From assembly GCA_015064895.1 (NCBI GenBank), contig SVRI01000002.1:1-64000 (forward strand): DNA of 64,000 bases. Direction: 5' to 3'. The position numbers and the translations under genes were made by a program. Source of the stretch: Oscillospiraceae bacterium (GTDB taxonomy: Bacteria > Bacillota > Clostridia > Oscillospirales > CAG-382). Position 1 is the first letter of the stretch, and each line of letters begins with the position of its first letter. Shown piece by piece: positions 15,911 through 44,104 of this stretch. The notes under the pieces are model-generated. The model was not told the origin of the DNA and ran no database searches. It worked only from the letters and a program-made list of their open reading frames with translations.

Positions 15911-18900
15911 TTAGTTTTCAGGGAAAAGTCCGTCACCGGGAAGTGTTGCCGAGCCGCTGTCTTCATAGTCAACGACTATTTTATAAAGAGCATTTCTTGT
16001 TTCGGTGTCAAGTGTTTCGTCTTCGAGCGCCGCCTTTGCGGTATCGTAAATGTTACCCTTGACAGCTTCGCCGTAGAGTATGAACTGTTCGCCGTCAACA
16101 GTAATCTTTGTATATGTCTTACATACAAGGTCTGTTCTGTACTTTGCTGCGGGAAGATTCTTTACTACCCCTGCAAATACGTGCTGTGTATCTGATGTGG
16201 AGTCGTAAATATGATCGATTCCCTGCTGCTTGTTATACGCAACACCCGTTGCAATCTTGGAGAAGTCGAGTGTGAGTTCAGTGTCGCCAAGGACATCGGA
16301 AGCCGCCACAACAAAGCCGTATTCATCAATTACAAAATCTGTTTCTTCGTTTTTGGGTGCTGTCAGGATATTCGACTTGAAACGGATACCCATTTCGCCC
16401 TTGGTTCTTAATGACTTTTCATTGTCTGAAGTCATATAGGAATCCATACCCAGCTTTGTTGCTGTTTTCGTTGTCATATCAACATAGAAATACTGTGATT
16501 TTACAAACTCGCCGTCGGCTGTCTTTTCAACAACTTCTATAAGAAGATTTTCTTCGCCGATTTCAGGGATATATTTGTCGTTATCTTCTGTTATTTCAGT
16601 TACAACGCCGCCGATTTCAACGTATCTTACGTTGGTTGCATCTGCTTTTGCACCGAGACTGATTTCAATGCTGTCAGGTTCTGACTTGGGAACTGTGTAG
16701 TAAAGACCTATCCAAACTCTACCGATATAATTACTGTCATAATCCAAATCGGAAGTTACTTCGGCGGTGTCGGAAAGCTCATAGCCGTCGTCAATAGTAT
16801 ATGCAATGTAAAGCATATACTCTACACCGTCTTCAAATACATCTGTAGGCTGCATAACAGTTCCGTTGGATTTCTGCCACTGGATTGTTCCAAGGGTGAT
16901 ACCCTCGGTATCGGTGGTTATACCGGTCAAGTCATAATTTTCGCCTGCAACGGGAGTGGTGACACCGGTGATGTTAACGGTATTGACTGGAATATAGTTG
17001 GCTGTGTAGTAAAGACCTATCCAAACTCTACCGATATAATTGCTGTCACAATCCAAATCAGAGGTTACCCCCACAGTATCGGAAAGCACATAGCCTTCGT
17101 CAACAGTATATCCAATGTAGAGCATATACTCTACACCGTCTTCAAATACATCTGTAGGCAACATAACAGTTCCGTTTGATTTCTGCCACTGGATTGTTCC
17201 GAGGGTGATTCCGTCGGTATCGGTGGTTATTCCGGACAAGTCATAAGTTTTACCTACAATAGGGGTAGCGACGCCGATGATGTTAACAGTGTCGATAGTA
17301 ACATCGGCTGTGGCTGTACGTGCTACAATATAAGGGCTGAAGCTGCTTGAAGTAAAGGTCATGGTAGCAGACTCACCGTCTATTACTATTGTAACACCCT
17401 CAACCTCTTCTGCTGTTCCGTCTGCCAATATATGATACAAAGCCGCTTCGCCGTTCTGAAGTGCCAATGCTTCTTCCATGCTGACAGATATACTTACCGT
17501 CAGTTCTTCTCCCTCGTCATAATACCGATTAAGGGTGTAGGGATATCCATCTTGGTCGAAAACATCGATATTATAGAAAGCCATTACGTTATCTGCACCA
17601 ACAGCTTCTGCCGCATTAATGATAAAAGAATTCGGAGGTATTTCTTCCACTTCAACCTGTTCAACAACCACATCTACTGTTACGCCCGTGCTTTCGATAG
17701 TCATTTGTTCCTTGGATTCAACAGTAATTTCATACTCGGGAACAGAGGGTTCTTCGCACATACATACGTTGGTTATATCATAACTCATCTGGTCGAAGTT
17801 ACACGGTAACATTTCATCTGTAACCGTACAGAGACCGCATACTGTGCATGCGTGCATACAGGGCAAGATGAGCCTAGACATATAATCGGCTTTTGTAATA
17901 CAAACTACCCACTGTTTACCGTCTTCAAAAGTGAATGTAACGGCACATTCGATTAACATCTGACCTTTGCCACCAAGTTCCCTGGATTTTTCACCGATAA
18001 AGCTATTGATGAAATTTTTGTTATCTTCATTCAGAATATCATCAAGCGTTATGCTGTTGCTGTCTGAATCTACTTTTCCGTAAGCAAAACCGTAAACGGT
18101 TCCGCTGGGCGCTGTTTCGGTTAAAACATCAGATTCCTTGGATTCGTCTCTCTCAAAGTGGCCGTACCACGTGCTGTCTTCATCGGTATCGTAGCCTTCC
18201 TTTATGAACTCGTAATACCAGCTGTATTCTGTCTTTACAGGTTCATAACAGCCCTCATACATAGGACCGACACTTACGGTAATGGGTGCTGTAACAGGTA
18301 TTACGGAAAGGTTATCATATTCCAAAGTCGAACCATAAATATGCTTGTCATAAAGAGTGTGAGAAAGACCGTCAAAACCGAGTTCAGTGTAGTTGGTACT
18401 TCCGTAAGAACCTCTGTATTCCACTTCACAAGATACCCTTAATTCAAACTCCAGGTTGTTTATAGTAACGTCGCCTAAAGCTTCGTCCTGTGCTTTAAGT
18501 GCCTCATAGATTTCTTTTACCGTTCCGTCAAGTGAAAGGTTAAGAACACCGCCGTCTTTGCTTATTGTTAAGAAATCACTGAGATCGTCGTAATAAGAAG
18601 ATATGTTCCATTCACCGCAGCCTTCGTTATATTCGCCATCCAGTCCGTATGGCGCATACATATAACTGGCTTTGCTTGAAAATTGGTACTCGTAGTCATT
18701 AATCAAAACTCTTGCTTGAACATAAAAAATTGCACCGTTGTAGTTGTCCTCTAAAGCCTTGTAATGCTCACGATCCCCATCCGGATATGTGGTATCAATA
18801 TAGTTGTTAAAAACCTCAATTGCATCATTGATATTGATGCTGAAGGACTGGTCAAATTTCAGTTCACCTGTGCCGTCATATTCAACTTCTTTCCAGAGGT

Positions 18901-19138
18901 CACAGACATCACTTGTATATTCACCTTGACTGAGCACAAAGGTTGTGCCGGGTTTATTCAGAACACTGAGTGCATACTCACCGGTTTCCAAAAGCTCGGC
19001 AGAGCTGTCAATTTTTAAAGTGTCCGATAAGGAATCGGATACAGTCACGGCGGCGGGAGATGCCAATGCCGTTACACAAAGTATTGACACTGCAACAAAA
19101 AACACAAATAACGCTTTTGCAAAGTTTCTCGTTTTCAT
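15911..19138 (-). CDS. Large secreted repeat protein of unknown function
   Basis: A 1075-residue exported protein that I cannot assign to a function. Residues 1-27 are a signal peptide (hydrophobic core, cleavage near ALA-SP). Residues 30-430 are an acidic, Tyr-rich beta region. A Cys cluster (CMHACTVCGLCTV) lies near 425-437, suggesting disulfides or a metal site. Residues about 612-817 are two near-identical 103-residue repeats containing DGITLGTIQWQKSNG and YIGRVWIGLYYT. The C-terminal 150 residues (MGIRFKSNI, DEYGFVVAA, AGVVKNLPAAKYRTDLV) resemble a C-terminal module I associate with large secreted clostridial proteins. No LPXTG, SLH or transmembrane anchor is seen. The ATG follows AAGGGG. 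Adhesin or glycan-binding roles are only guesses. Confidence 0.75.
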   Translation of the reverse strand: MKTRNFAKALFVFFVAVSILCVTALASPAAVTVSDSLSDTLKIDSSAELLETGEYALSVLNKPGTTFVLSQGEYTSDVCDLWKEVEYDGTGELKFDQSFSININDAIEVFNNYIDTTYPDGDREHYKALEDNYNGAIFYVQARVLINDYEYQFSSKASYMYAPYGLDGEYNEGCGEWNISSYYDDLSDFLTISKDGGVLNLSLDGTVKEIYEALKAQDEALGDVTINNLEFELRVSCEVEYRGSYGSTNYTELGFDGLSHTLYDKHIYGSTLEYDNLSVIPVTAPITVSVGPMYEGCYEPVKTEYSWYYEFIKEGYDTDEDSTWYGHFERDESKESDVLTETAPSGTVYGFAYGKVDSDSNSITLDDILNEDNKNFINSFIGEKSRELGGKGQMLIECAVTFTFEDGKQWVVCITKADYMSRLILPCMHACTVCGLCTVTDEMLPCNFDQMSYDITNVCMCEEPSVPEYEITVESKEQMTIESTGVTVDVVVEQVEVEEIPPNSFIINAAEAVGADNVMAFYNIDVFDQDGYPYTLNRYYDEGEELTVSISVSMEEALALQNGEAALYHILADGTAEEVEGVTIVIDGESATMTFTSSSFSPYIVARTATADVTIDTVNIIGVATPIVGKTYDLSGITTDTDGITLGTIQWQKSNGTVMLPTDVFEDGVEYMLYIGYTVDEGYVLSDTVGVTSDLDCDSNYIGRVWIGLYYTANYIPVNTVNITGVTTPVAGENYDLTGITTDTEGITLGTIQWQKSNGTVMQPTDVFEDGVEYMLYIAYTIDDGYELSDTAEVTSDLDYDSNYIGRVWIGLYYTVPKSEPDSIEISLGAKADATNVRYVEIGGVVTEITEDNDKYIPEIGEENLLIEVVEKTADGEFVKSQYFYVDMTTKTATKLGMDSYMTSDNEKSLRTKGEMGIRFKSNILTAPKNEETDFVIDEYGFVVAASDVLGDTELTLDFSKIATGVAYNKQQGIDHIYDSTSDTQHVFAGVVKNLPAAKYRTDLVCKTYTKITVDGEQFILYGEAVKGNIYDTAKAALEDETLDTETRNALYKIVVDYEDSGSATLPGDGLFPEN
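16690..17305 (-). repeat. Tandem duplication, 309-bp unit (103 residues)
   Basis: Two in-frame copies with a 309-bp period inside the secreted protein; for instance GTGTAGTAAAGACC recurs at about 16695 and 17004. The high DNA identity indicates recent duplication or gene conversion. Confidence 0.85.
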
Positions 19139-22500: not shown

Positions 22501-22990
22501 TTTTATCACTCTTTATTTCATCTTCTAAATCAACAGACAAAGGATATGCCTTTCTGATTTTGTCGTATAATTCTTTATTCTTTGTAAGTACGATTGTAAA
22601 TGTGCTGTCAAATGCAATTATTTCTGTTTCAGCCAATGGATGCTGCATTGAATAGGGAATTTTCCAATATCCGTTGTATTCATCGCACCAAGGCAATTTG
22701 TGAGACATTATTTCTTCTTCTGAAATATCCTTTGCAAATGATAAAAATGTACCCCAAACCCACAGAAAATCTTCAGTATTAACAATTTCCGTTATTCTCT
22801 CTCCGGACATAAAAACAGGAGAACAGGTATGCCAACCGAAAATTTTTTCATACTCCTCTGTGACGGGAAAGCACTCGTAGTTAGCGATAAGCCAGTTAAA
22901 CTTCAGCTGGTCGTTTTCCATTGAATTAAATACTTTTTTCATTAATGTGTAACCGGGTTCACCTTCACCGATAAAAATACCGTAAATCAT
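22490..22990 (-). CDS. Uncharacterised protein, DUF2691-like
   Basis: A 166-residue soluble protein of unknown function. The start MIYGIFIGEG and the segment FNWLIANYECF resemble the DUF2691 family as I remember it, with a conserved Trp and Glu, but this is recognition by eye. It is acidic, has no signal peptide or membrane segment, and is rich in aromatic residues. It overlaps the upstream four-helix-bundle gene by 4 bp (ATGA), so the two are translationally coupled; GGAGA precedes the ATG. The pair sits between repeats and next to a tRNA, suggesting a small acquired cassette. Confidence 0.6.
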   Translation of the reverse strand: MIYGIFIGEGEPGYTLMKKVFNSMENDQLKFNWLIANYECFPVTEEYEKIFGWHTCSPVFMSGERITEIVNTEDFLWVWGTFLSFAKDISEEEIMSHKLPWCDEYNGYWKIPYSMQHPLAETEIIAFDSTFTIVLTKNKELYDKIRKAYPLSVDLEDEIKSDKKYH

Positions 22991-23343
22991 TTTGCATTCT
23001 CCTTCGCCGTGTTAATTGAAGCTATGAGAATTCTTTTTATTTCAAGACAATCGTTCAAAAGAGATTTTCCCATATCTTCAGTTATAAAATCAGATATTGT
23101 AAGTAATTTGAGCCAATATTCGGTTTCGGCAGTTTCTTTTAATGCAATGTGCATTTTGGAGATGAAATCAGCTTTACTTTGACCGTAATTAGCTTCATTT
23201 ATATTAGCACCAATGGATGTTCCGCTACGAACAATTTGTTTTGATATTATCGTTTCTTTTTGTGTTTTGATAAGGTATTGGTGTAGTTTAATAATTCTGG
23301 AAGCAAAAGAAATAGATTTATCAATCAGTAGGTTTTCTTTCAT
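22987..23343 (-). CDS. Four-helix-bundle protein (S23 / intervening-sequence family)
   Basis: A 118-residue all-helical protein of the S23 ribosomal intervening-sequence family. Visible hallmarks are the first helix SISFASRIIKLHQYL, the motif KQIVRSGTSIGANINEANYG, and KMHIALKETAETEYWLKLL. The family was first seen encoded in intervening sequences of 23S rRNA genes and is now known as scattered stand-alone genes; Avd proteins of diversity-generating retroelements share the fold. Members form pentameric bundles and may bind nucleic acid. No reverse transcriptase or variable repeat is nearby, so a DGR role is not supported. The ATG follows a strong GGAGGGG site. It is the first gene of a two-gene operon. 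Confidence 0.9.
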   Translation of the reverse strand: MKENLLIDKSISFASRIIKLHQYLIKTQKETIISKQIVRSGTSIGANINEANYGQSKADFISKMHIALKETAETEYWLKLLTISDFITEDMGKSLLNDCLEIKRILIASINTAKENAK

Positions 23344-23771: not shown

Positions 23772-26249
23772 TTATGAGAAGTATTCCTTTAAATATTCAA
23801 CATTGACAATCTTTTCGGCAAGGCTATACTTATTAAAGAAGTAATGGTTTGCCGACTCAAAGCCGATGGTGGAATTCTTTGATGCAACATCATACATCAT
23901 TACAGCAAGCTTTTCTTCCTCGTCAAGAACAACGAGAATTTCAGTCTTGTTTTCCCTTTTGCCGTCGAGATATTCATTTCGCAATCTGTTATACTTTGTC
24001 TGAAGGTAACTGCTTCTGTAAATACAATAGCCTGCTGTTGCAACCTCGACAAATTCTCGGATATTCTCACTGTCAATCACAGCATCCGAGAGCAATCTAT
24101 CAAGTCCCTCTTTCCAGATTTCAGAAAGTGTTTTAAGGCAGTTTTCATAAACATCAAGCGGGAAAATCGCACGCCAGGATTCTATGTCATCATAGGGATA
24201 CCCTGTCATGGTAGCTTTTAGTCCCGTCTGTTTTTCAAACAAAAGGTTTGCAGGTCCCATTTGGAAAGGTCCGAGATATGCAGTATGTACATGGAAGGGT
24301 AGGTTACGGAAAGCCTTGCTGAAAGCGGCTGTTGCACGGTGAACAGCTTCTGCGTTTTGTCCAAATATTTCCTCATATACATCGCCGTCTTTTTCTTGTC
24401 CGAAGTAGTATTTGCTCATAGCCAAAAGGTTCATGGAGGGATATCCGCCGAGAGACCACGACAGCATCAAGCCGTCAACGGGATTTTCGCAAATGCCGTC
24501 CATATGCTCTTTGACAAGGTCAAGGGTCGGGATATATGGAATTGTCGAGCATTCCCACGAGTTGTTAAACTGCACCTTTGCCAAGGACTTGCCGCCCGCC
24601 TCTTTGCACGTTTTCCATGTCTTCTTTGCAGTTTCACCCGGACCTACAAGGCTTATGGAATAGTCGATGACAGAAGTTTCGGTGTCACCGAACTTCTTGC
24701 TTACGCCTTCTTCACTGACACAGACTATTCTTGCTCCTGTTTTTGCAGTTCTCTTTACGGTATCCCATCTGTCGTTACACCAAGCCCACGACCAGTCATA
24801 TGCGATAACCTCGATATCTTTATTTACGCTTTCGGCTGCCTTTTTTATTATGCCGTTGACTTCTGCGTAAACCTCCTCCTGAGGTCTGTCTTTACATATG
24901 GGACAATATGTGAAATTCTTTATGGAATGGGAAAAGCAATTTGTTTTATTTTCACTTGCCGTAATTGTAAGAAATCCGCCGATATTGGGTGCTGCCTCGC
25001 ATATGGTTTTTATACCGTTATAAAGATAGTCCTGAACAGGCTTTTTTGAAGTACAAAGAGTACCTTCTCCTGCCTCGTCAAGATAGCCGAGAAGTTCGGG
25101 GTGTTTATCAAAAAATGCTTTTGGTCTTGTTCTCGGTTCGTTGATATAAAGATATATCTTGACTCCGTACTTTTCGGCTCTGTCACAAAGTTTCTTAAGA
25201 CCTTTCAGTCTCTTTTGCCAACCGTCGGAAATGGATTTATCCCACGAAAATTCACACATCTTATAAAGCACCGAATGAATCCACACACCGTTGATGCCGA
25301 TTTCGGAATACTCCTTGAAAAGAGAGTCGGGATAAGACGATTCACCGCCGTCGGCAAAGGGGTCGCCGAAAAGAGCACAGTAGGAATGAATAAAGCGGAT
25401 ATCAAAGCGGGTATCCCTTGTAATTTCCATTTCGTCAAAGGAAAAACTGTTATTCTTTTTGACAAGAGTCTTTAAATACTGAAGTCCTCTGAGTACACCC
25501 ACCTCATCAACAGCGGCAATCTTAATTCCGCTCTTTGTAATGGATATACTGTGGCTTTCTGCCTTTTTACTCTCGTTCTTAATCACCTCAAGGGTTATAT
25601 GTTTTTCGTTTCCGTCAAGGGAAATGTTTGCATTTTCATACGCAAAGGCTTTGAAATAATCGGCATATTTTCCGCTTGTTCTGTCGTCAATTCCCCATTT
25701 TTCGTCAAGGACTACTGCACGCTTTTCACCGTTATACGACAGCTTTTCCTCTTTGCCGAAGTTATCAAGAAAATCAAAGTCCTCAGCCGATGTTTCTTTG
25801 CCGAAGAAAGGAAGATTTGACAGCAGTTTTTCTTTGATATTTTTTGTTTTTTCTTTTTCCTCATCTGTCAGAGGTCTGTATTTCAGAGGCTTTACATCAG
25901 GCTTGAACTGCCCGAGCTTTATGCCAAAGAAATCTTCTTCGCGAAGAGTAAAGGCAAGTTCATCTTCGGTAAGGTCAACAAGCTCCGAAAGCTGGTTGTA
26001 CGGCAGAAGGTGCCAGTTATTACGGATTATTGTAAGATATCCTCTTTCACCGTACCTTTTGTTGTACTTTGCAGGAACACGAAGTCCCATACCGGATGCA
26101 AGACTGTTTACCGTTTCAACATCGGTATCAAGAACTTTTGCCAGTTTTGCTACAGGAACGCTTTCCCAGTTACGGAATATGAAGTTTTGAAAAAGTGTCG
26201 GAAAACTATTATAATCAGCTTTTCTATCAGCGACAATAGGAAGATTCAT
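23772..26249 (-). CDS. Putative glycoside hydrolase, GH20-like barrel with N-terminal helical modules
   Basis: An 825-residue cytosolic protein. Residues about 25-105 hold two short helical segments resembling helix-turn-helix folds (VAKLAKVLDTDVETVNSLA and NQLSELVDLTEDELAFTL). Residues 175-260 resemble the alpha/beta domain that precedes GH20 or GH67-type barrels (GVLRGLQYLKTLVKK). Residues 270-620 look like a TIM barrel with GINGVWIHSV, VKIYLYINEPR, VIAYDWSWAWCND and FNNSWECS. A CPIC motif with nearby Cys suggests a metal or structural site. No signal peptide. A carbohydrate-active role is likely, but the family is not certain; catalytic Asp-Glu pairs typical of hexosaminidases are not clear. 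The ATG at 26249 is chosen for its AGGTGG site; a GTG 12 bp upstream is the alternative. Confidence 0.65.
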   Translation of the reverse strand: MNLPIVADRKADYNSFPTLFQNFIFRNWESVPVAKLAKVLDTDVETVNSLASGMGLRVPAKYNKRYGERGYLTIIRNNWHLLPYNQLSELVDLTEDELAFTLREEDFFGIKLGQFKPDVKPLKYRPLTDEEKEKTKNIKEKLLSNLPFFGKETSAEDFDFLDNFGKEEKLSYNGEKRAVVLDEKWGIDDRTSGKYADYFKAFAYENANISLDGNEKHITLEVIKNESKKAESHSISITKSGIKIAAVDEVGVLRGLQYLKTLVKKNNSFSFDEMEITRDTRFDIRFIHSYCALFGDPFADGGESSYPDSLFKEYSEIGINGVWIHSVLYKMCEFSWDKSISDGWQKRLKGLKKLCDRAEKYGVKIYLYINEPRTRPKAFFDKHPELLGYLDEAGEGTLCTSKKPVQDYLYNGIKTICEAAPNIGGFLTITASENKTNCFSHSIKNFTYCPICKDRPQEEVYAEVNGIIKKAAESVNKDIEVIAYDWSWAWCNDRWDTVKRTAKTGARIVCVSEEGVSKKFGDTETSVIDYSISLVGPGETAKKTWKTCKEAGGKSLAKVQFNNSWECSTIPYIPTLDLVKEHMDGICENPVDGLMLSWSLGGYPSMNLLAMSKYYFGQEKDGDVYEEIFGQNAEAVHRATAAFSKAFRNLPFHVHTAYLGPFQMGPANLLFEKQTGLKATMTGYPYDDIESWRAIFPLDVYENCLKTLSEIWKEGLDRLLSDAVIDSENIREFVEVATAGYCIYRSSYLQTKYNRLRNEYLDGKRENKTEILVVLDEEEKLAVMMYDVASKNSTIGFESANHYFFNKYSLAEKIVNVEYLKEYFS

Positions 26250-26386
26250 CACAAATACCACCTGTTATTTTTTCTCAGTATAACACCGCAGGGTATGGAA
26301 GTCAATAGCACCTTGTCAAAAAACAGACAGTGCGATACTGCTAATATACAGATTTCGTCAACATGCACGAAGTTATTCGACAGTTG

Positions 26387-26415
26387 TTGACAAAATCACT
26401 TATATATGATATAAT
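26387..26415 (+). promoter_or_regulatory. Consensus promoter for the GT2-LTA synthase fusion
   Basis: TTGACA (26387-26392), 17-nt spacer, TATAAT (26410-26415), with TGA before the -10. The leader to the start codon is about 100 nt and contains no riboswitch I recognise. Confidence 0.75.
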
Positions 26416-26519
26416 CAAGCGGTTGAAATTGCAAACATATATTTACTTATGTATGGTTAGTGTTTTATGGTAGTGTTGTTTCTTGACATCTGCATGCACT
26501 GTTTTACGGAGGTATATAA

Positions 26520-29500
26520 TTGTCAGAATCCATAATTAATGCTATAAAAAGTGCAATAATCAATATTGGGCATATATATCCCGCTGCATGGTCGATACGG
26601 AATTTTGTTTTTTCATTTATCGGTTTATTAACTGCATACATAACCATTTACCTTATTATAGGTTTTTTCACCACGAGAAAGTTCAAAAAAACTGAAAACA
26701 AGCACAAATATGCAATCTGCATAGCTGCCAGAAACGAAGAGTCCGTAATCGGCAATCTTATTGAAAGCATAAAAAACCAGGATTATCCGTCAGAGCTTCT
26801 CACAATCTTCGTCGTTGCCGACAATTGCACCGATGCCACTGCAAAAATCGCCAGAGAATGCGGGGCTGTTTGCTACGAAAGATTTGACGATATTCACAAA
26901 ACAAAGGGTTTTGCCCTTCAGCACCTTTTCAAACAAATAGACAAGGATTACGGCACCGAAAGCTTTGAAGGATACTTCATTTTTGATGCCGACAATCTTC
27001 TTAACAGCGATTATATCACCCGAATGAATGAAGCATTCGACTCGGGGGAAAAAATAATTACATCATACAGAAACACCAAAAATTTCAACGAAAACTGGCT
27101 TGCATCAACCTATGCAATTCATTGGCTGCGTTCTGTACGCATGTGGCATAGAGCACGCTCTTTTCTGAGACTTGCAACAAACATTCAGGGCACAGGTTTT
27201 CTGTTTGCCAACGAGCTTGTCAGAAACGGTTGGAATTACACTTCCTTAACTGAAGACCGTGCATTTACAGCCGATGCGGTTGCACACGGTTATGCCATCT
27301 CTTTCTGTTATGATGCGGTATTTTATGACGAACAGCCGACAAAACTCAAGGTAGCTTTAAGGCAGCGTCTGAGATGGTCAAAAGGTCATCTCATGGCATT
27401 TTCTGAGACGGGGCCTTACCTGTTGAAAAATATTATTGTCGGTCCAAGATACAAAGAAGATGCAAAAGACGGATTAATCAATCCCAAAGTCCGTTATCAC
27501 TGTAAAAGCAAGCCCGACACCCTTAAAGGCAGATTAATTGAACAGATAAGGTTCAGATGGGCATCTTTTGACACCTTTGCACAGCTTTTCCCAAAGGTTG
27601 TGGTAAAGCTCTTTGTATGGCTCGCAGTATCGGTTATTCTGCATTCCTTCGTGTCATATGCAATAGGAATCAGGGGTGTTGGTTTATTCAGAGTAAACAA
27701 TGCCTTTGCAGATATTCTAATCGCAATATTCGGAGACAAAATTATATACGCAAGACCCGGCACGCAGGCGATGCTGATTTCGGTATTGCTGACACTTTTC
27801 TGGAATGTCATAAGAAGAATCAATTCCCATATCAAAGCGATGGCGATGCCCATCTATATATTCATTGTTGAACACAAGAGAATTGTAAAAATCCCGTTTT
27901 ACAAAAAAGTTTTGTTTACTCTTACTTGGCCCACCCTTGATGCAATAGGCAGATGGACCACCTATCTAGCATTATTTATGAAGGTCGAATGGAAGCCCAT
28001 TCCCCATACCAGTACAGTTACCATAAATCAAATTGAAAAGGCAAAAAAAGAGGTTACAGAAATGTCAAACCATAAACTTAAATTGCCATCGGGTATTAAC
28101 AAGCGATTGATACTAAGAATAATTATATTGATTGTACCGTTCTTACTGATGGACATTTTTGTTCGTATTCTGACAAGTGATATAAACTACAGTCTTCCGG
28201 CAACAATTGCCCCGAACATTCTGTTCACTATTATGTGGATTGCACTTTTTATCGGTATATCACTTTGCTTAAAAGGAGTACTGGGCCGGATTTTTTACGG
28301 CTTATGCTTCACATTGTTTTTCCTGTTGTTCATGACCCACTCGGTTTACTATTCATACACGGGATTCATCTTTAACTTCACCCTGCTTGAGTCAGCTAAC
28401 GAAGGAAAAGCTTATATTTGGGACGTTGTAAAAAACTCCAACCTTTTAACTTATTTCAAATGTGCCATAGTATTTATCATTGGTGTAATAACTACAATTA
28501 AATTTCCTACATCAAAAAACTTCAAATGGAAACAGCTTATCATTATTATTGTTTCTTTTGTTCTTTTGCATCTCGGCACTCCAATGCTTCTCGGAAAGGC
28601 AAACAAATCGCTCGAATGGGACACCTGGAGAAATCCGAGAAATGTATATGAAAACTTCAACGACAGCAACAAAAACATAAAAATCTGCGGTCTTTATGAA
28701 TACTCCGCAAGGGATTTTTACATGACATTCTTAAAGTCAAAAGACGAAAAGAATCCCGAAGAAACAGAGTTTCTCAAAAACGAATATGCTGACAAGACAC
28801 AGCATAAGAAAAACGAATTAACAGGACGATTCAAAGGCAAAAATGTCATTTTCCTTCAGCTTGAAGGTATTGACAGTTGGCTTTTTAACGAGGTTGACAT
28901 GCCCAATCTTTACGGCATGATGGACCATTCTTTCGTGTTTGATAATCATTACTCATATTACACCGGCGGCGGTTCAACCTTTAATTCAGAGCTTGCCGTA
29001 ACAACAAGCTTTATCACTCCGATTTCATACACTCAGAATGCCTATTCATTCAACAAAAACAGTTTTCCTGCATCGCTTCCCAATAAGTTGAAAAAGCAGG
29101 GCTATAGAGTAAATGCCTTCCACATGAACTCCGGTGAGTATTACATGCGTGAATTAAACTACAAAAATTGGGGTTACGACAACTACTACAGTCTCATGGA
29201 TGACGGAAATTATAAAGACATTTCATATCAGCTTGACAGAGAGCTCATCCTTAACGATTTCTTCTACAATAAAATGTTCGAGCAAGAAGAGCCGTTCATG
29301 AACTACATTATTTCCTATACGCCCCACACCCCTTTCTCACTTGACAGCAGAATGGGTAAGCTTCTTGCAAAGAAGTTTTATGGTGAAGGCGCAGAAATTC
29401 CAAGTATGACTGAGGAAGAAACCGCAAGGTTTTTTGCAACAGAAACCGACTACATGATAGGACTTCTGCTTGAAGCATTGGAAGAAAACGACCTTCTTGA

Positions 29501-29939
29501 AGATACTATTATCGTTGCTTTTGCCGACCACTATCTTTACACTCTTAACGACAAGACGATTCTCGACAAAAACGGCAAGCATACCGAAAACAACCTCATC
29601 AATCATACTCCTTTTCTTATCTGGAGCAAAGACTTATCCAGAAAGCACATCCAGAAAGTAAATTCACAGCTCGACATTCTTCCCACGGTAATGAATCTCA
29701 TGGGTATCAGTTATTCCGAAACCGATTATATCGGAAGAGATATTTTTGACAAGGACTACAAAGGATATGTTTTCTTCAGCGATTATTCATGGTATGATGG
29801 CGTAAACTATGTTGAATACGGTGAAGTAACCAACAACGAATATGCAGACCCTGAATACATTGCAAAGAATAATGAGCTGATAAACAATCTTATCAGACGA
29901 AACGATCTTACACTAAAGCATAATTTCTTTAAAAAATAG
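26520..29939 (+). CDS. Glycosyltransferase 2 / LTA synthase-like sulfatase fusion membrane protein
   Basis: A 1139-residue membrane protein joining two enzymes. Residues 28-50 are a membrane helix. Residues 62-300 are a processive-type GT2 domain with AARNEE (69-74), FDADN (155-159), TED (244-246) and QRLRW (282-286). Several more helices follow to about 500. From about 525 a second block of five helices leads into an extracellular LTA-synthase-type sulfatase domain (about 770-1120), with the probable nucleophile Thr820 in GGGSTFNSE and metal motif ADHY (1002-1005). GT2 domains use nucleotide sugars in the cytosol; LtaS-type domains transfer glycerol phosphate from phosphatidylglycerol outside. 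The fusion could couple glycolipid or glycan synthesis to its phosphoglycerol modification. TTG start with GGAGG site. An internal in-frame ATG (28062) with AAGAGG may give the second half alone. Confidence 0.85.
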   Translation: MSESIINAIKSAIINIGHIYPAAWSIRNFVFSFIGLLTAYITIYLIIGFFTTRKFKKTENKHKYAICIAARNEESVIGNLIESIKNQDYPSELLTIFVVADNCTDATAKIARECGAVCYERFDDIHKTKGFALQHLFKQIDKDYGTESFEGYFIFDADNLLNSDYITRMNEAFDSGEKIITSYRNTKNFNENWLASTYAIHWLRSVRMWHRARSFLRLATNIQGTGFLFANELVRNGWNYTSLTEDRAFTADAVAHGYAISFCYDAVFYDEQPTKLKVALRQRLRWSKGHLMAFSETGPYLLKNIIVGPRYKEDAKDGLINPKVRYHCKSKPDTLKGRLIEQIRFRWASFDTFAQLFPKVVVKLFVWLAVSVILHSFVSYAIGIRGVGLFRVNNAFADILIAIFGDKIIYARPGTQAMLISVLLTLFWNVIRRINSHIKAMAMPIYIFIVEHKRIVKIPFYKKVLFTLTWPTLDAIGRWTTYLALFMKVEWKPIPHTSTVTINQIEKAKKEVTEMSNHKLKLPSGINKRLILRIIILIVPFLLMDIFVRILTSDINYSLPATIAPNILFTIMWIALFIGISLCLKGVLGRIFYGLCFTLFFLLFMTHSVYYSYTGFIFNFTLLESANEGKAYIWDVVKNSNLLTYFKCAIVFIIGVITTIKFPTSKNFKWKQLIIIIVSFVLLHLGTPMLLGKANKSLEWDTWRNPRNVYENFNDSNKNIKICGLYEYSARDFYMTFLKSKDEKNPEETEFLKNEYADKTQHKKNELTGRFKGKNVIFLQLEGIDSWLFNEVDMPNLYGMMDHSFVFDNHYSYYTGGGSTFNSELAVTTSFITPISYTQNAYSFNKNSFPASLPNKLKKQGYRVNAFHMNSGEYYMRELNYKNWGYDNYYSLMDDGNYKDISYQLDRELILNDFFYNKMFEQEEPFMNYIISYTPHTPFSLDSRMGKLLAKKFYGEGAEIPSMTEEETARFFATETDYMIGLLLEALEENDLLEDTIIVAFADHYLYTLNDKTILDKNGKHTENNLINHTPFLIWSKDLSRKHIQKVNSQLDILPTVMNLMGISYSETDYIGRDIFDKDYKGYVFFSDYSWYDGVNYVEYGEVTNNEYADPEYIAKNNELINNLIRRNDLTLKHNFFKK
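28047..28064 (+). promoter_or_regulatory. Possible internal ribosome site and start
   Basis: AAGAGG at about 28048-28053 followed 8 bp later by an in-frame ATG (28062, codon 515), exactly at the junction between the GT2 and LTA-synthase halves. Confidence 0.4.
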
Positions 29940-29948
29940 CAAAAAAAG

Positions 29949-29976
29949 AGGCAGTCACAGTTGTGGCTGCTTTTTT
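29949..29976 (+). terminator. Terminator after the GT2-LTA synthase fusion
   Basis: GCAGTCACA and TGTGGCTGC form a 9-bp stem with one G-T pair, followed by six T's. Confidence 0.85.
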
Positions 29977-30043: not shown

Positions 30044-33000
30044 ATGAAGAATCTTATTACTTGCCGGTTTACATCGTCAAACGGCATTGTAAAACAGGAA
30101 AATGACAAGCAGAGTTTTATCGTAAAAAGAGCTCCCATAGGTGAAAAATTCCTTATGGACAACCCTCTGTACACTTTTACGGCAGAAGGTCCTGTCAGTC
30201 TTGAGGAATATGTTGTAATCGAGTACGATTGCTTTGGCATAAAGCGTACACCCAATGCCTATAAGGGTCCTTTTATGTCACTCAAAAAGGGTGAAGAAAA
30301 CATCCCGCTTTTCCTTTTTGACGACATGCTTTGCGACAAAAAGAGCCATACAATTATTGTAAAAGCTCCCGAAGGAAATTTTGATTCAATGGTAATGAGC
30401 TTCCGCATTGACAAGCTCCCCGAAGCTTATTTCAACATCACAAAGCTCTATACCTGCAAAAAGTGTGAGCTTCCGGTTTGCTGTGAAAAGGGTGTCTCTG
30501 CAAATGCAAAGCCCTTTACTCCCATTGATATTTCCGACAAGTTCGACATGGAATACGACTTTTCGGAATTTGACAGTCTCAACGATGCAGGACGCTATTT
30601 TGACAAAGAGAATATCTCGCTTTACGGTGTTCCCTTCAATGTAAAGGTAGACGGCAAAAATCTTATTTCAGCACCGCCTGTTCCCGCCGAAAACGAAGAC
30701 ATAATCGAAAACTTCGGCAAAAAGTGCAAGAGAAGAATCTGCCGTGCTGTCAGCCGTGACGGTGAAACTGTTATCAATATAAACAAAAAGGCAAGTGAAA
30801 TCTACTTTATTCTCTCTCTTTCGGGCAAGCGCCACATCCGTCTTCTTTACGGTTCAGACCCCACGATTTTAGGTCAGGCAAATGTCGATCTGAGCATTCC
30901 GTTTACAGTTGAAGACGTTGAATATTTCATGGCTGAAGTTGTCTACAAGGACGGAAGACGCGACACTCATCTCCCCCTCAATCTTGCTACGGGCAGACAC
31001 GGCATTCAGGGTGACGTAAGCGTTTACGCAGTTCCCTGTGACGGCGAAGTTGAAAGCCTTATTATTCACAACAGAAATCTCGACACAGACGTAAATCTTG
31101 CAGCAGTTACCGTAAATGAGACAGACGAAAGACTATATCCCGACATGCTCATCCCCGAAAAGGATGAAGTAATTGCAAGGGTAATTCCTGCCGACAAGGG
31201 CTTTGGTCTTGACGGCAAGGTTCTCACAATCAGAAACTGTGGCATTTCAATGGTTATCGACCTTTCTAAGGGTCTTAACCTTATTGACATGAAGAACGCA
31301 TACACACCCGACATGAAGGTAAACAAGGGTGCGATTCTCAAGACAAGAGCACAGAACGGCGAAATAAACGAGGAATTTGAATTCCAGAACATTCAGTACT
31401 TTGACAACTACGCAAAGATTACATACAAATACGAAGGTGCAATTTTTGACATAACAGCCGACATTTCGGAAAAAGACAGCATAAAGTGGATGCTTGAAGT
31501 TGTCAACATGGCAGATACCGAATTCAAAAAGGGCATCATGTTCCCTTGCATTCCCACTGTAGACTTTGGCGGATTTTCCGACAACTGGTACTACCTTCCC
31601 AAATATCAGAACCTCAACAGCAACGAAACAATGTTTATGTATGAGGAATCAGCCCCCTCTTTCCCCTTGCAGTTTATGGACATCTATTCTCCAAAGATGC
31701 AGGGCGGTCTGTGTATATCTACTCAGGAAAGAGAGCTTATTACCCGTAAGTACGCCCTTACAAAAGACGAAAGCGGTCTTGAATTATACGTAGAATATCC
31801 TTACATGTACGGTGACATTGAGTCCCGCGGAACATTTATCGCATCCCCTGCTCTTATCACAGCACACAAGGGCGACTGGAGAGAATCCTTTAAGATTTAC
31901 AAGACCTGGCTTGAATCCTGGTACACCCCCTACAAGTGTCAGGACAAGCAGTGGTACAGAGAATGCTTCTGGCTGCTTGCAGAAATCACCGACTTCTTTG
32001 AAACAGAAGACATGTGTGCTTGGCCCTGTTGGTACAACCCCGATACCAAGCAGTTCAACTTCAGAAAGATTCTTGAAGAACAGAAAGGCATTACAGGTGT
32101 ATATCCCGACATTCTTCATATGTGGTCATGGTGCTGTACCTGGCGTAACGGCAGATACGGTCAGCGTTGGGGCAACTACGACAAGGAAGACTATGCAAAC
32201 TACGGCGGTCTTGAGCCTTTCAGAAACGCACTTCACGACATCCGTGACAATATGGGTGTTCAGATTTCGCTCTACATGCACCCCACACTTCTTTCCAACA
32301 CCTACGAAAAATTCAATCTTTTCAAGGACACAAGTATGGTTAAGAGCGAATGGGGCGGTCACATCGGTATTGCAGGCGACTCCTTCAGAATGTGTCATGC
32401 AGAAGAAAGCTTCAGAGAAGCTTCCCTCTCAATGTATCCGAGGCTCTACAAGGAAGTGGGTATTCCGCTTATCTACGTTGACGAATTTTCCCTCAGAATC
32501 GGCAACAGATGTTATGCAGACAATCACGGACATCACATTCCTTCAAATCTTCTCAAGACCGACAGAGAATACATCTCACGTCTTAAAGACATCATGCCCG
32601 AGGAAGTTGTTCTCTACGGCGAATATGCTGCGGCAGACGTAAATGCAAGATACATCGACTGCAACATCTCATACTACATCCTCGACTCTATCGTTGACAT
32701 GATTGAAACAACAAAGAGAGCGAATGACGGTGATGACAGGTTATCTCGTGTATTCATGCACGCATACCGTTTTGCATTCCCCAAGATTGTACAGCTCATT
32801 CTTCCCATGGCAATGAGAAACATCTCATGGCACCCGCAGAAGTTCTTATTCTTCAATGCAGAAGCAATCTACGACTCATTCTGGGACTGCGAAGAATCGA
32901 GAGGTCAGGACTTTACTGTTCATGCGTATAAGCTCAAGAAGAAGTATCAGGACTGCTTCACATCCGACTATCCCGAAATGATGGTTGAGACAGAATCACC

Positions 33001-33229
33001 TGCCATCTGTATGAACAAGTTCCCCTCAAAGGACAGAATTGTTTACACTATCTACAACAGAGCTTACTCAACATTCAGAGGTAAAGCTCTCAAAGTTCCA
33101 TACACGGAAGGTGCAACCTACTACGACGCATGGAATGAAAAGCCACTCGAATACAAGGTAGTTGACGGTTTTGCTGAAATTTATCTTGAAATCGGTGCTC
33201 AGGAAATGGGTTGTATTGTTATTGAGTAA
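30044..33229 (+). CDS. Large putative carbohydrate-active protein, DUF6259-like
   Basis: A 1061-residue protein without signal peptide or membrane helices. I recognise it only loosely: the central segment (about 640-900), with RECFWLLAEITDF, DILHMWSWCCTWRNGRYG, YMHPTLLS, LIYVDEFSLRIG and VLYGEYAAAD, resembles the DUF6259 family thought to be glycoside-hydrolase-like barrels. The acidic residues in YVDEFS and YGEYAA are possible catalytic ones. The N-terminal 600 residues look like beta-sandwich domains, and the end (EIYLEIGAQEMGCIVIE) fits a C-terminal beta domain. The ATG follows AAGGAGG. It is monocistronic, ending in composite element E. Placement among GH genes supports a glycan role; the substrate is unknown. 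Confidence 0.6.
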   Translation: MKNLITCRFTSSNGIVKQENDKQSFIVKRAPIGEKFLMDNPLYTFTAEGPVSLEEYVVIEYDCFGIKRTPNAYKGPFMSLKKGEENIPLFLFDDMLCDKKSHTIIVKAPEGNFDSMVMSFRIDKLPEAYFNITKLYTCKKCELPVCCEKGVSANAKPFTPIDISDKFDMEYDFSEFDSLNDAGRYFDKENISLYGVPFNVKVDGKNLISAPPVPAENEDIIENFGKKCKRRICRAVSRDGETVININKKASEIYFILSLSGKRHIRLLYGSDPTILGQANVDLSIPFTVEDVEYFMAEVVYKDGRRDTHLPLNLATGRHGIQGDVSVYAVPCDGEVESLIIHNRNLDTDVNLAAVTVNETDERLYPDMLIPEKDEVIARVIPADKGFGLDGKVLTIRNCGISMVIDLSKGLNLIDMKNAYTPDMKVNKGAILKTRAQNGEINEEFEFQNIQYFDNYAKITYKYEGAIFDITADISEKDSIKWMLEVVNMADTEFKKGIMFPCIPTVDFGGFSDNWYYLPKYQNLNSNETMFMYEESAPSFPLQFMDIYSPKMQGGLCISTQERELITRKYALTKDESGLELYVEYPYMYGDIESRGTFIASPALITAHKGDWRESFKIYKTWLESWYTPYKCQDKQWYRECFWLLAEITDFFETEDMCAWPCWYNPDTKQFNFRKILEEQKGITGVYPDILHMWSWCCTWRNGRYGQRWGNYDKEDYANYGGLEPFRNALHDIRDNMGVQISLYMHPTLLSNTYEKFNLFKDTSMVKSEWGGHIGIAGDSFRMCHAEESFREASLSMYPRLYKEVGIPLIYVDEFSLRIGNRCYADNHGHHIPSNLLKTDREYISRLKDIMPEEVVLYGEYAAADVNARYIDCNISYYILDSIVDMIETTKRANDGDDRLSRVFMHAYRFAFPKIVQLILPMAMRNISWHPQKFLFFNAEAIYDSFWDCEESRGQDFTVHAYKLKKKYQDCFTSDYPEMMVETESPAICMNKFPSKDRIVYTIYNRAYSTFRGKALKVPYTEGATYYDAWNEKPLEYKVVDGFAEIYLEIGAQEMGCIVIE

Positions 33230-34672: not shown

Positions 34673-36517
34673 TTATTTATTTGTGATTTTTATTATACAT
34701 CCGTCAAAGGCTTTCACCTTATCTTTGTTTCCGTAAAGTACATTTTCAACGGTATAGCCATCTTTAAATGAAAGTTCAAGGTCTTTATCCGTATCGGTAT
34801 GATTGAGAACCACCACATATGCTCCGTCATCTGTTTCGTGATATGTGGAAACAAGGTCATTATCGGAAATCTCATAAGGGTATTCTGCGATATAGTCGGC
34901 AAAGAGAGTTTTATAAACAATTTCAAATCCGCCATCAAACGCATTATGTCTGTCAACAAGGTTATCTTCAAGCGGTGCATTTACAAAGAACACCCTGCCT
35001 TTACCGTAGTTATTAACTGTAATTAAGGGGTTGTTTTCATTATCGCTAAAGAGCACCTTTGCACCTATAGGCTTGAAGGTTATATTTCTCATTCTGAAAA
35101 GTGTTATATCTTTACCGCCTATATTAGCAGTAACATTTTTAGCATACTCGGATGAATCAACTACTCTCAGTCCCGAGAAACTTTCAAACTCGGATATTAC
35201 TGCGTTATTTGCCGAGATATACAAGTCTGCACCGTTATATACCCTTTCTTTAAGCTCATTGAATCTTTCAACCGGCATCATTCTGATACCGTTGATTGAA
35301 GGAAGCATATACAGCCTTGAATCAGGCAAAGTTTTTTCTCCGTCCTCAAACACGCAATTAAGACCTGCTTTCTTCATAAGGCAAAAGGTCATATAACCGA
35401 CACCCCAGTTTCTCTGGTCACGTGTCATAACACAGACAGCATCCACTCTCGCCTTGGGAAGCTCAAGAGCACTTTCATCAAGGAAGTCCGCAAACTTTTT
35501 CATTTCCTTGAGGACGGGTTTCGGGTTATGATTGACATCAAGCATACCAAGCTCCAGTTCAACAAACTGGTCATTATAGGGAAATGTTTTAAGATTTGTC
35601 TGGTCGTTTGCACACCACCACATTGCACCATCCTGTCCGTTTGCAAAGAGTGAAAGCATATTGATTCTCATAAAGTCTGCAGCCTTTTCATTACTGCAAA
35701 TCATGGGTCCCATCGTGCCTATTTCTTCGGCAAGGCAGGGCTTCTTGGAAATCTCGGAATAATACTTTGACTGCGCGGTGGGATGAAGGGTTGTTCTGAA
35801 GGAAAGGGTTTCATCTATCCTTGTATGCTCGCACCAATACGGATAGGGGTGTGTTGTAAGAATATCGGTAAACATACCCTGATGAGAAATGGTCCATTCG
35901 TTATTAAGTCCGAGACCGTGCATTCCCGAAACGACGGGTCTTGTATTATCCGCCGCCTTTATTGCGTTTGATACCATGGCTGTCCAGCTTGCCGCCTCAA
36001 ACACCGAAGTTACCGGTGCCATACAGTTACATTCATTACCGAGATCCCAGGCATATATGCAGTTTCTGTCCTTGAATCTTTGGACAAATCCCTTAATAAA
36101 CAGCTGTTCAAAGTAGAGGGCAACGGGATGTGTTATAAGGTTCTTTTCATAAAGTGCCGCCGGCACAAACAAGGCACCGCTCATCCAGCCTGTGAGAAGT
36201 CCCACAATGAGTTTAATATCATACTTATCACAGATATCGAGAAAAGTCGAGAAACGTGAAAGCATTTCTTCATCGAGATAGTATTCGTTTTCCGGTTCTT
36301 GTCCGTTCTTTACGGAATAGCCGATTACTCTTCCCTGTCCTGCAATAACAGGTGTTACGGGCTGAAAATCACGCCAGTTGGGAAATACTCTTAAGTACTT
36401 TGCTCCGTGTTCAGAGAGAATCTTTATATCATTTTCAATTGCTTCTGCATCAAAGTTCTGCCACATTTCCGTTCCTGCATTTGATGCCCAGTAATTACAA
36501 CCAAGTTTAAATTTCAT
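34673..36517 (-). CDS. Clan GH-A glycoside hydrolase, GH5 mannanase-like
   Basis: A 614-residue cytosolic enzyme. Residues 1-345 form a (beta/alpha)8 barrel beginning KLGCNYWASN. The likely acid/base Glu is in WDLGNECN near 168 and the nucleophile Glu in CLAEEIGTMG near 267, the strand-4 and strand-7 positions typical of clan GH-A retaining enzymes. TTHPYPYW contributes the conserved His/Tyr. Residues 365-520 resemble the glutamine-amidotransferase-like domain found after the barrel in GH42-type enzymes, and the end is a small beta domain. Mannan or mannoside hydrolysis is the best guess, given the GH38 gene nearby. The ATG follows AAGGAGT, 17 bp after the preceding gene, so the three genes 39407-34673 form an operon. 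Confidence 0.75.
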   Translation of the reverse strand: MKFKLGCNYWASNAGTEMWQNFDAEAIENDIKILSEHGAKYLRVFPNWRDFQPVTPVIAGQGRVIGYSVKNGQEPENEYYLDEEMLSRFSTFLDICDKYDIKLIVGLLTGWMSGALFVPAALYEKNLITHPVALYFEQLFIKGFVQRFKDRNCIYAWDLGNECNCMAPVTSVFEAASWTAMVSNAIKAADNTRPVVSGMHGLGLNNEWTISHQGMFTDILTTHPYPYWCEHTRIDETLSFRTTLHPTAQSKYYSEISKKPCLAEEIGTMGPMICSNEKAADFMRINMLSLFANGQDGAMWWCANDQTNLKTFPYNDQFVELELGMLDVNHNPKPVLKEMKKFADFLDESALELPKARVDAVCVMTRDQRNWGVGYMTFCLMKKAGLNCVFEDGEKTLPDSRLYMLPSINGIRMMPVERFNELKERVYNGADLYISANNAVISEFESFSGLRVVDSSEYAKNVTANIGGKDITLFRMRNITFKPIGAKVLFSDNENNPLITVNNYGKGRVFFVNAPLEDNLVDRHNAFDGGFEIVYKTLFADYIAEYPYEISDNDLVSTYHETDDGAYVVVLNHTDTDKDLELSFKDGYTVENVLYGNKDKVKAFDGCIIKITNK

Positions 36518-36534
36518 GCAATATACTCCTTATC

Positions 36535-38259
36535 CTAAAACTCAAATATAGCAAAGCCGGCAGCAGGAACCGTTACATAATAGTTTTTGTCATCAATTCT
36601 TTCGATTTTAACATCATCTGAGCAGAGCTTTATGGCTTTGAGATTTGCGTTGTCCTTAAAGGTTACTTTTACACGTCTGTCGGCGTTTTTATCTATGCTG
36701 TCGCCTACGGGTCTTGCTCTATAGTTACCTTCATTATTGAAGATTGAAAGGTATCTTCCTCCGTCTGCGTTTTTAGAAACAAGCCAGTGAAGTCCGTCAA
36801 CAGTAACGGGCATGATTTCCATGCTTCTTGCCTTGACATCAAGTTCAAGCTTTTCTAAGTTATCGCTTGTGTAAACTCTATATTTTTTACCGTACATCTT
36901 TGACACACGGCTATCGGGGGACGCATCAATAAGTGTATCGTACTTTGCAAGTACTTCTTCCGAAGCATCTTCGTAAATAATATCAAACAAATCGCCAAAG
37001 CGTGAGTTTGTCATAACGTGACCTTCATTGCCGTACCTTTCGCCGTAGCTTTCGTACATGAGCTTTAACACATTTTCAACGTATCCGTTAAACGCTTTCT
37101 GTTTGTCATCGACAGGCATAAGCATATAGTTATCGTTGAACTGATTGATTTTGCGGACTCTGAAGGGATTATGAATCTCAACGCATGAGTACTCCTTAGG
37201 AAGCACAATGGCAAAGGGAATATGTGCTTTTACATTTTTATAATTTCTTGCAAAGTCGATAAATTCCTTCTTGGCAATACCGTATTCCGAAAGTTCAAAT
37301 GTATTCATATCGGAATAGGAGCAATTGAGCCCCCACTCCTCGGCAAGGTAATCCGCACCGCTCATGAGAGAATAGTAATAGATTCTCTTCTGAAGAAGTC
37401 GGGATGAACCGCCCGCCTTGCCATGTTCGGTAAAGTTATCGGGATGTAGGTCCTGAGTGAGATACCATTCATTTGAAGGGTCATCATTGAAGCACGGCAT
37501 GGATGCATCAAATTCGGTTGGTGAAGCAATCCATGTTTCATAATATGTACCCCACTTTTTACCTGCCGGCTCTGCAATACCGCGGGTTGTGGCAACGGCA
37601 ATTCTCATATCGGCAATCTGCCAGCCGACTTCGGGCATAAAGGTTTTCATTCCAAGCTCGTTCTGCATTCTGTGAAGAAGGAAATAGCTGTCACAGGGAA
37701 GCACATATCCGAGAGTTTCATCCATTCTTCTCTTATAAATTGCCGAAACAAGTTCAAGAAATTCATCTGAGTTTTTGGGAAGGCGGACATTTGCATAATA
37801 TTCGGGTGTGTCGTGGGAAAGATTTGCAAGTCTTGTTCCGTCGGGCATTACGGCATGTTCGCTTGCAAGTTCATTTTTGAGAATTTCAAGGTCATAGGGG
37901 CCGTCACCGATTCTTTTGAGTCTCGGAATATCCGACTGGGCAATATTACTTGCACTTTCATGGAGCTGAAAACCTAAAAACCAATCGCCGAGGATGCTTT
38001 CGTATTCACGGATAAGGTCGTGGTCAAATTTATATTCGTGATATGTAATACCGCCTGTGATTCTGTCAACGTAGAAGGGTATTTTATTCTCCTTAATCAT
38101 CGAGTGAAGGCGTGTACCCTTTGCGGCAAATTTATTGAATTTCAGTTCTTCGGGGACAGAAAAAGCGTGCTGGATTTTGAAACCCGAGTCTTCATTCAGA
38201 AGGTCATTTTTAATCAGACCTTCATAGCATCTTTCATTATATACATGGAAAAATTTCAT
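36535..38259 (-). CDS. Unknown protein, probable TIM-barrel enzyme
   Basis: A 574-residue protein I cannot name. It has no signal peptide or membrane helix. Motifs suggestive of a glycosidase-like barrel are GDWFLGFQLHESASN near 90-105, MPEVGWQIADMRIAVATTRG (Glu at a strand end), KKWGTYYETWIAS, and DYLAEEWGLNCSY with a Glu pair. The C-terminal 100 residues look like a beta domain (FAIFEF end). It lies between the deacetylase-like gene (17 bp gap) and the GH5-like gene (17 bp gap), each with a ribosome site, so it is cotranscribed and likely acts on the same glycan. The ATG follows AGAGGT. Confidence 0.5.
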   Translation of the reverse strand: MKFFHVYNERCYEGLIKNDLLNEDSGFKIQHAFSVPEELKFNKFAAKGTRLHSMIKENKIPFYVDRITGGITYHEYKFDHDLIREYESILGDWFLGFQLHESASNIAQSDIPRLKRIGDGPYDLEILKNELASEHAVMPDGTRLANLSHDTPEYYANVRLPKNSDEFLELVSAIYKRRMDETLGYVLPCDSYFLLHRMQNELGMKTFMPEVGWQIADMRIAVATTRGIAEPAGKKWGTYYETWIASPTEFDASMPCFNDDPSNEWYLTQDLHPDNFTEHGKAGGSSRLLQKRIYYYSLMSGADYLAEEWGLNCSYSDMNTFELSEYGIAKKEFIDFARNYKNVKAHIPFAIVLPKEYSCVEIHNPFRVRKINQFNDNYMLMPVDDKQKAFNGYVENVLKLMYESYGERYGNEGHVMTNSRFGDLFDIIYEDASEEVLAKYDTLIDASPDSRVSKMYGKKYRVYTSDNLEKLELDVKARSMEIMPVTVDGLHWLVSKNADGGRYLSIFNNEGNYRARPVGDSIDKNADRRVKVTFKDNANLKAIKLCSDDVKIERIDDKNYYVTVPAAGFAIFEF

Positions 38260-43890: not shown

Positions 43891-44104
43891 AACAGCATTA
43901 TATGGCATGTATCCATGTGATGCGTGCAACTAACAGGTAAAAAAGAAACGACTATTCTACGGAACTTTATTGATTTAATCGAATGACTGACTGCATTCCA
44001 TGTATCGGTCATGCTCTCCGTCAGATTTTACTGAATCTTTTTATTCCAATGAAATTCAGACGCGAGGTATATTCCTTGCGTCTTTTTCATATCCGGAGGT
44101 AATC
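43891..44104 (+). other. Intergenic leader between secG and LTA synthase-like gene
   Basis: I see no gene here. It contains short inverted segments (GCATG/CATGC types) and ends in a terminator-like hairpin at 44058-44087, just before the next ribosome site. I looked for a tmRNA, common near secG, and found no tRNA-like ends or tag frame. Confidence 0.4.
44058..44087 (+). terminator. Terminator or attenuator before the LTA synthase-like gene
   Basis: AGACGCGAGG (44058-44067) and CCTTGCGTCT (44074-44083), one G-T pair, then five T's. It ends 8 bp before the GGAGG site of the next gene, so it may attenuate that gene as well as end secG. Confidence 0.75.

Follow-up and report, generated by a model that had tools for sequence, protein, structure and literature searches.

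A fused GT2 glycosyltransferase and LtaS-type transferase, a rare single-chain form of a gene pair conserved in Bacillota

The fused gene and its signals

One long reading frame in the window, the 64,000-nucleotide stretch of DNA analysed here, appears to encode two membrane enzymes in succession, a GT2 glycosyltransferase and a transferase of the lipoteichoic acid (LTA) synthase (LtaS) type. We asked whether this is a genuine single protein, whether its two halves belong together in other organisms, and what they would make together. The features to which the analysis refers, with the evidence for each, are as follows.

26387..26415, + strand: sigma-A type promoter, TTGACA-N17-TATAAT, its -10 hexamer preceded by TG (consensus match only)
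26508..26512, + strand: ribosome-binding site GGAGG, with the TTG start 7 nt downstream (direct reading)
26520..29939, + strand: fused gene, GT2 synthase plus LtaS-type transferase, 1139 aa (open frame, Pfam, AlphaFold2)
26520..28040, + strand: GT2 synthase half, residues 1-507 (Pfam, alignment, topology, fold)
28041..28100, + strand: cytosolic linker, residues 508-527 (junctions of GT2-first loci; low pLDDT at 519-524)
28043..28064, + strand: A7 run, Shine-Dalgarno-like AAAGAGG and in-frame ATG (Met515, at 28062) (direct reading)
28101..28592, + strand: five transmembrane helices of the LtaS-type half, about residues 528-691 (hydropathy over the alignment, model helices)
28773..29936, + strand: extracellular sulfatase-fold transferase domain, residues 752-1139 (alignment with solved LtaS; fold)
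29945..29976, + strand: intrinsic terminator right behind the stop codon (RNA fold -18.7 kcal/mol, z -5.1, then T6)

The frame at 26520-29939 (+) is intact from its TTG start, with no internal stop codons; at the observed base composition, a stop-free run of 1139 codons would be expected by chance with a probability of about 1e-31. The candidate promoter agrees with the consensus at 12 of 12 positions, has an extended -10 element, and is the top site of the region. The terminator was absent from the output of the pattern scan and came from RNA folding. Because a promoter match lies upstream and a strong terminator follows the stop codon, the fused gene is apparently transcribed on its own.

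A preliminary description of this locus had proposed that a complete GT2 domain and a complete LtaS-type domain share the frame, and this was borne out: the uninterrupted protein contains the Pfam domains Glyco_tranf_2_3 (residues 63-289, E 5e-24) and Sulfatase (residues 775-1063, E 6e-31). The motifs that it had listed are present where it placed them (FDADN 155-159, TED 244-246, QRLRW 282-286, Thr820 and ADHY 1002-1005) and, in alignments of 40 GT2 and 54 LtaS-like sequences, are invariant except at A157 (A or S), L284 and A1002. It had also let one half act in the cytosol and the other outside. Hydropathy, positive-inside charges and fold predict the same sidedness, with GT2 catalysis on the cytosolic face and the LtaS domain beyond the membrane; hydropathy over the alignment, taken together with charge, gives a cytosolic linker, five transmembrane helices in the LtaS half, and a catalytic domain outside the cell. 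An AlphaFold2 model of the whole protein has a mean pLDDT of 90.5 with a weak linker, and its pTM of 0.60 leaves the mutual placement of the two halves uncertain.

Three large proteins that flank the fused gene, at 23772-26261 (-), 30044-33229 (+) and 34673-36517 (-), have weak matches of glycoside-hydrolase type (GH20 domain 2, DUF6259 and GH5-like). Two others, at 15911-19138 (-) and 36535-38259 (-), had no Pfam match. At 22987-23343 (-) the window encodes an apparently free-standing member of the 23S rRNA intervening-sequence family (PF05635), a four-helix bundle.

The GT2 half

The GT2 half is laid out as an N-terminal transmembrane segment, a cytosolic GT-A domain, interface helices, further transmembrane helices, and a C-terminal WKPIPH motif (491-496) that is kept in at least 38 of 40 GT2 sequences. 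Its catalytic positions are invariant in all 40 GT2 relatives: RNE 71-73, D101, the DxD motif at 156-158 (D156-A-D158), TED 244-246 and Q282RLRW286. The motifs DxD, TED and Q(Q/R)xRW are those of processive membrane GT2 synthases of the BcsA and hyaluronan synthase type, and the succession of a GT-A domain, interface helices and transmembrane helices is matched at the level of the predicted fold. The model of this half (pLDDT 89.9) aligns with E. coli BcsA with a Z of 27.2 (377 aligned residues within 14-512, rmsd 4.6) and with hyaluronan synthase with a Z of 26.9, the membrane region being included in both cases. PcManGT, which carries no polymer-synthase annotation but only that of a mannosyltransferase, fits nearly as well as BcsA (Z 25.1), and the fold does not discriminate between a polymer synthase and a glycolipid synthase.

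The score against the curated CelA model TIGR03030 is 19 bits, below the cut-off of 699, and the Pfam scan of the fused protein reported no PilZ domain. By motif and predicted fold, the GT2 half is of the processive membrane type, but it is not BcsA proper.

The genome of the window also holds a second, stand-alone GT2 (G000:C16:50240-51823; L002:1546-3117, minus strand). It is about 70% identical to the GT2 half, is its sister in the tree, and ends slightly beyond the fusion point. One of the two other species with a fused gene, L049 (described below), likewise has a solo GT2 copy (L147).

The LtaS-type half

The LtaS-type half spans residues 528-1139 approximately. Its nearest solved structures by sequence are the Listeria and Staphylococcus LtaS and LtaP, and alignment with solved LtaS identifies E782, T820, D1003 and H1004 as the metal and nucleophile residues and H868, R877 and H936 as belonging to the glycerol-phosphate pocket. 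These seven residues, together with N870, are invariant in 54 of 54 LtaS-like sequences. In S. aureus LtaS we take the pocket to consist of H347, W354, R356 and H416; the position of W354 is occupied by Tyr875 in the window protein, and by Tyr in all 54 sequences.

The predicted model of this half matches LtaS and LtaP structures with Z values of 40-42, including 42.2 for the complex of LtaS with glycerol phosphate (4uor), versus only about 26 for sulfatases. Neither EptA nor BcsG is among the 50 structural matches listed, which comprise LtaS, YejM and sulfatases. Against the LtaS equivalog model NF053595 the fused protein scores 116.8 bits, with a cut-off of 970 (other paired proteins, 96-133 bits), and against the OpgB (phosphoglycerol transferase I) model NF009027 it scores 19.3 bits, with a cut-off of 572. 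The LtaS half has an LtaS-type predicted fold and an LtaS-type catalytic site by alignment, yet it falls short of both equivalog cut-offs by a wide margin.

A second sulfatase-fold protein of 828 aa is encoded in the window at 44000-46486 (+). Its match to the fused protein is weak (E ~1e-4), and no NCBIfam model matched it.

The fusion and the gene pair in relatives

The linker, residues 508-527, is the point at which relatives close one gene and open the next. The preliminary description had regarded a stop at about codon 510 in relatives as a sign of an assembly error here. Most relatives do have such a stop, but this does not imply an error in the window. The same in-frame fusion is present in two further species. 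L034 (1131 aa; the same gene as L053) was found in a whole-protein search, comes from another family of the same order, and is 56-57% identical over both halves; L049 (1116 aa), about 60% identical, comes from a collection of 84,980 species and was recovered again as G434. Neither has a start codon at the join, so both can be produced only as fusions. Given these two species, the fusion in the window is not a missing-stop artefact.

We consider it very improbable that an assembly or sequencing error, a base lost or gained in the A7 run (28043-28049), joined two genes here: the A7 run, the Shine-Dalgarno-like site and the ATG do sit exactly at the join, and a one-base shift there would bring the GT2 to a stop at 28073 and restore the split arrangement of most relatives, but the in-frame fusion recurs in two independently assembled species that lack a start codon there, and the LtaS-half tree makes L049 the sister of the window protein (support 89), with which it also clusters when the GT2 halves are compared in a tree.

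The A7 run, AAAGAGG and the ATG at 28062 may possibly be the leftover start of a formerly separate LtaS-type gene. One-base slippage on the A7 run would free the GT2 alone, and internal initiation at the ATG would free the LtaS half. The linkers of the other two fusions are also Lys-rich and A-rich.

Closely related split forms exist. In G079, a congener of L034, the same site beside cinA carries a GT2, a stop, a Shine-Dalgarno sequence and then LtaS, and the LtaS-half tree pairs L034 with this split form. In L052 the halves share one frame with a GT2 stop codon in between. On the trees, at least two changes between the fused and split states are required. The expectation of a conserved clade of fused proteins was therefore only partly realised: fusions recur, but in three species that do not form one clade, and what is conserved is the pair.

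A genome scan queried with patterns of the LtaS half only gave 81 distinct loci, and in 53 of them the LtaS-like gene adjoins a member of the cognate GT2 subfamily (50-62% identity to the window GT2 half). Most of these pairs are convergent (34). In 13 the GT2 precedes LtaS on a common strand, fused to it in 3 cases; in 5 the order on a common strand is LtaS-GT2, and 1 is arranged otherwise. Some of the split pairs overlap at stop and start in the ATGA manner (in L097 and L124). A full-length GT2 copy lies elsewhere in 12 of the 27 genomes of the remaining loci, many of which have short flanks. With four gene arrangements represented, the link between GT2 and LtaS has outlasted rearrangement. 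This is a stronger argument than the correlation between the interspecies distances of the two halves (r 0.85), since shared descent alone also yields such a correlation. As judged from these gene neighbourhoods, the conserved unit is the pair of GT2 and LtaS-type genes and not the fusion, which is rare (3 species), and the conservation of the pair in many Bacillota argues for a functional link between the halves.

The carriers are Lachnospiraceae, Oscillospiraceae-like Clostridia, small-genome Bacilli and assemblies labelled 'Tenericutes', mostly metagenome-assembled. No third partner gene recurs across the 81 loci, where the housekeeping neighbours differ by clade; the exception is a YfhO/GtrA/GT2 set in some Bacilli, which have the LtaS-like gene without the cognate GT2. 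Nine Bacilli loci (L088, L094, L096, L099, L101, L116, L118, L120 and L123) place the LtaS-like gene near YfhO with GtrA and/or a further GT2, L120 having YfhO alone, and an adjacent cognate GT2 is missing from all nine but L116. Loci with YfhO and GtrA/GT2 are of the three-component glycosylation type, and a set of this type is responsible for LTA glycosylation in B. subtilis and S. aureus (PMC8035078).

A further LtaS-like protein with a long N-terminal extension (L050, genome G298) groups with the fused window and L049 proteins. No GT2 was found in its genome at the threshold used, and the partner has possibly been lost. A viral or mobile origin of the fused gene was rejected, as relatives of the fused protein were absent from viral contigs.

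What the module may make

To the fusion, the intact active sites and the conserved pairing, and to the predicted folds and sidedness, we add by inference the processivity, the sugar, the transfer of glycerol phosphate, and the GT2 product as its acceptor. The explanation that we prefer, at about even odds, is that the fused protein unites in one chain the two enzymes of a conserved envelope module, in which the GT2 would make a glycan and the LtaS-type half would add glycerol phosphate to it. In the cytosol, the GT2 half would build a sugar polymer from a nucleotide sugar, and it would push the polymer out through a channel of its own. The LtaS-type half, held close to the glycan exit, would load glycerol phosphate from phosphatidylglycerol onto the catalytic Thr820 and pass it to the emerging glycan. 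This reading is favoured by the analogy with BcsA-BcsG and OpgH-OpgB (see below), and it is consistent with the retention of the metal, nucleophile and glycerol-phosphate-site residues in the LtaS half, except for the change of W354 to Tyr. The YfhO/GtrA/GT2 context in some Bacilli speaks against it, fitting an LTA-like polymer at least as well. Of the earlier suggestion that one machine makes a glycan or glycolipid and decorates it with glycerol phosphate, or builds a teichoic-acid-like polymer, the two complete enzymes and their functional link have held up; the GT2 product may be a polysaccharide or a glycolipid, and glycerol phosphate may be added singly or as a chain.

Other envelope genes of the carriers bear on this choice. 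In 5 of 20 genomes the paired LtaS-like gene is accompanied by a far better match to LtaS, and DltD was not found in any of the 20 carrier genomes tested. On these two grounds, the job of the paired protein is probably not ordinary D-alanylated LTA, and the absence of DltD led us to reject ordinary LTA with D-alanine as the product. An NCBIfam match to EpsU was also set aside as a functional clue, EpsU being an oligosaccharide translocase, and the S. pyogenes qim operon was rejected as an equivalent because it is a different system.

The GT2 half might instead make a glycosyl-diacylglycerol anchor, to which the LtaS half would add glycerol phosphate as an LtaP-like primase or as a full LTA synthase. 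We judge this unlikely, but it remains a real rival because the GT28 anchor enzyme clears its cut-off in no more than 4 of 20 carrier genomes. In its favour are the genes of LTA-glycosylation type that neighbour the LtaS-like gene in some carriers and the fit of PcManGT to the GT2 half, and Listeria provides a precedent, with its separate glycosyltransferases for glycolipids and its LtaP/LtaS pair (PMC2764115). Several points argue the other way: the alignment of the GT2 half with BcsA and hyaluronan synthase extends over its full length, channel region included; the genome of the window has a GT28 glycolipid-synthase homologue of its own; DltD is missing, as noted; and a glycolipid would need flipping before the outer half could act. 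If an anchor were nevertheless the product, the fusion would join anchor synthesis to LTA assembly.

Quite improbable, in our estimation, is that the LtaS half goes on adding glycerol phosphates to a GT2-made glycan until chains of several units form, giving a teichoic-acid-like polymer on a polysaccharide instead of single substituents. LtaS and LtaP are the nearest solved folds and the LtaS catalytic residues are kept, as such an activity would suggest, and systems of the YfhO type, which neighbour some copies, have teichoic acids as their targets in other species. A score of 117 bits where the curated LtaS model requires 970, the uniform replacement of the pocket tryptophan by Tyr, and the stronger LtaS match that co-occurs in some carriers all count against chain building.

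If the decorated-glycan explanation is right, synthesis, export and decoration would be carried out by one polypeptide in the fused forms. Its products would then constitute a class of Bacillota surface glycan so far undescribed, polysaccharides made by one conserved GT2, to which a dedicated LtaS-type partner adds glycerol phosphate during export; we advance this tentatively, at somewhat less than even odds. The module, whose carriers include Lachnospiraceae, Oscillospiraceae-like Clostridia and small-genome Bacilli, leads us to expect a specific product, and cultured carriers such as Butyribacter intestini offer places to find it. To our knowledge, surface polymers have been little characterised in gut and rumen Bacillota beyond the well-studied Bacilli. 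We found no published description of a GT2-LtaS fusion or pair in the literature searched, with subscription papers and preprints lying outside it.

Comparison with known systems

GacH puts glycerol phosphate on a cell-surface polysaccharide (PMC13059722). GacH/SccH, whose glycerol-phosphate transfer is directed to the cell-wall carbohydrates of streptococci, resemble the proposed module, by description and not by sequence, in that glycerol phosphate goes to such a polysaccharide and not into LTA synthesis. We know of no fusion of GacH/SccH to a processive GT2 synthase, or exclusive pairing with one.

With LtaS and LtaP (PDB 4uor, 4uop, 2w5q) the window protein shares five transmembrane helices, an outside sulfatase-fold domain, the catalytic Thr, the metal ligands and a glycerol-phosphate pocket kept for the most part. 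It differs in its low identity (about 22%), in a score far below the equivalog cut-off, and in having Tyr for W354. Its type is, moreover, fused to or paired with a GT2, and a stronger LtaS match is present alongside it in some genomes.

OpgB transfers phosphoglycerol to glucan (PMC3818809), the osmoregulated periplasmic glucan of which OpgH is the synthase, and the likeness is that of a membrane glucan synthase and a phosphoglycerol transferase working on the synthase product. OpgH and OpgB are, however, encoded by separate genes in Proteobacteria, and with the model for phosphoglycerol transferase I the window protein reaches only about 19 of the 572 bits required.

E. coli BcsA holds three BcsG phosphoethanolamine transferases beside the nascent cellulose chain (PMC11379886). 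In that system (PDB 9b8v, 9fmz), as proposed for the window protein, a processive GT2 is combined with a five-helix membrane enzyme of the alkaline phosphatase superfamily that puts a head group onto the nascent glycan outside the cell. The window transferase differs in being of LtaS type and covalently fused to its synthase, in which Pfam reports no PilZ, and its hosts are Bacillota. If our preferred explanation holds, the glycan would correspond, in Gram-positive bacteria, to phosphoethanolamine cellulose and to phosphoglycerol glucans, and the comparison suggests that the coupling of a glycan synthase to a phospholipid-head-group transferase is recurrent in evolution, with different enzyme families.
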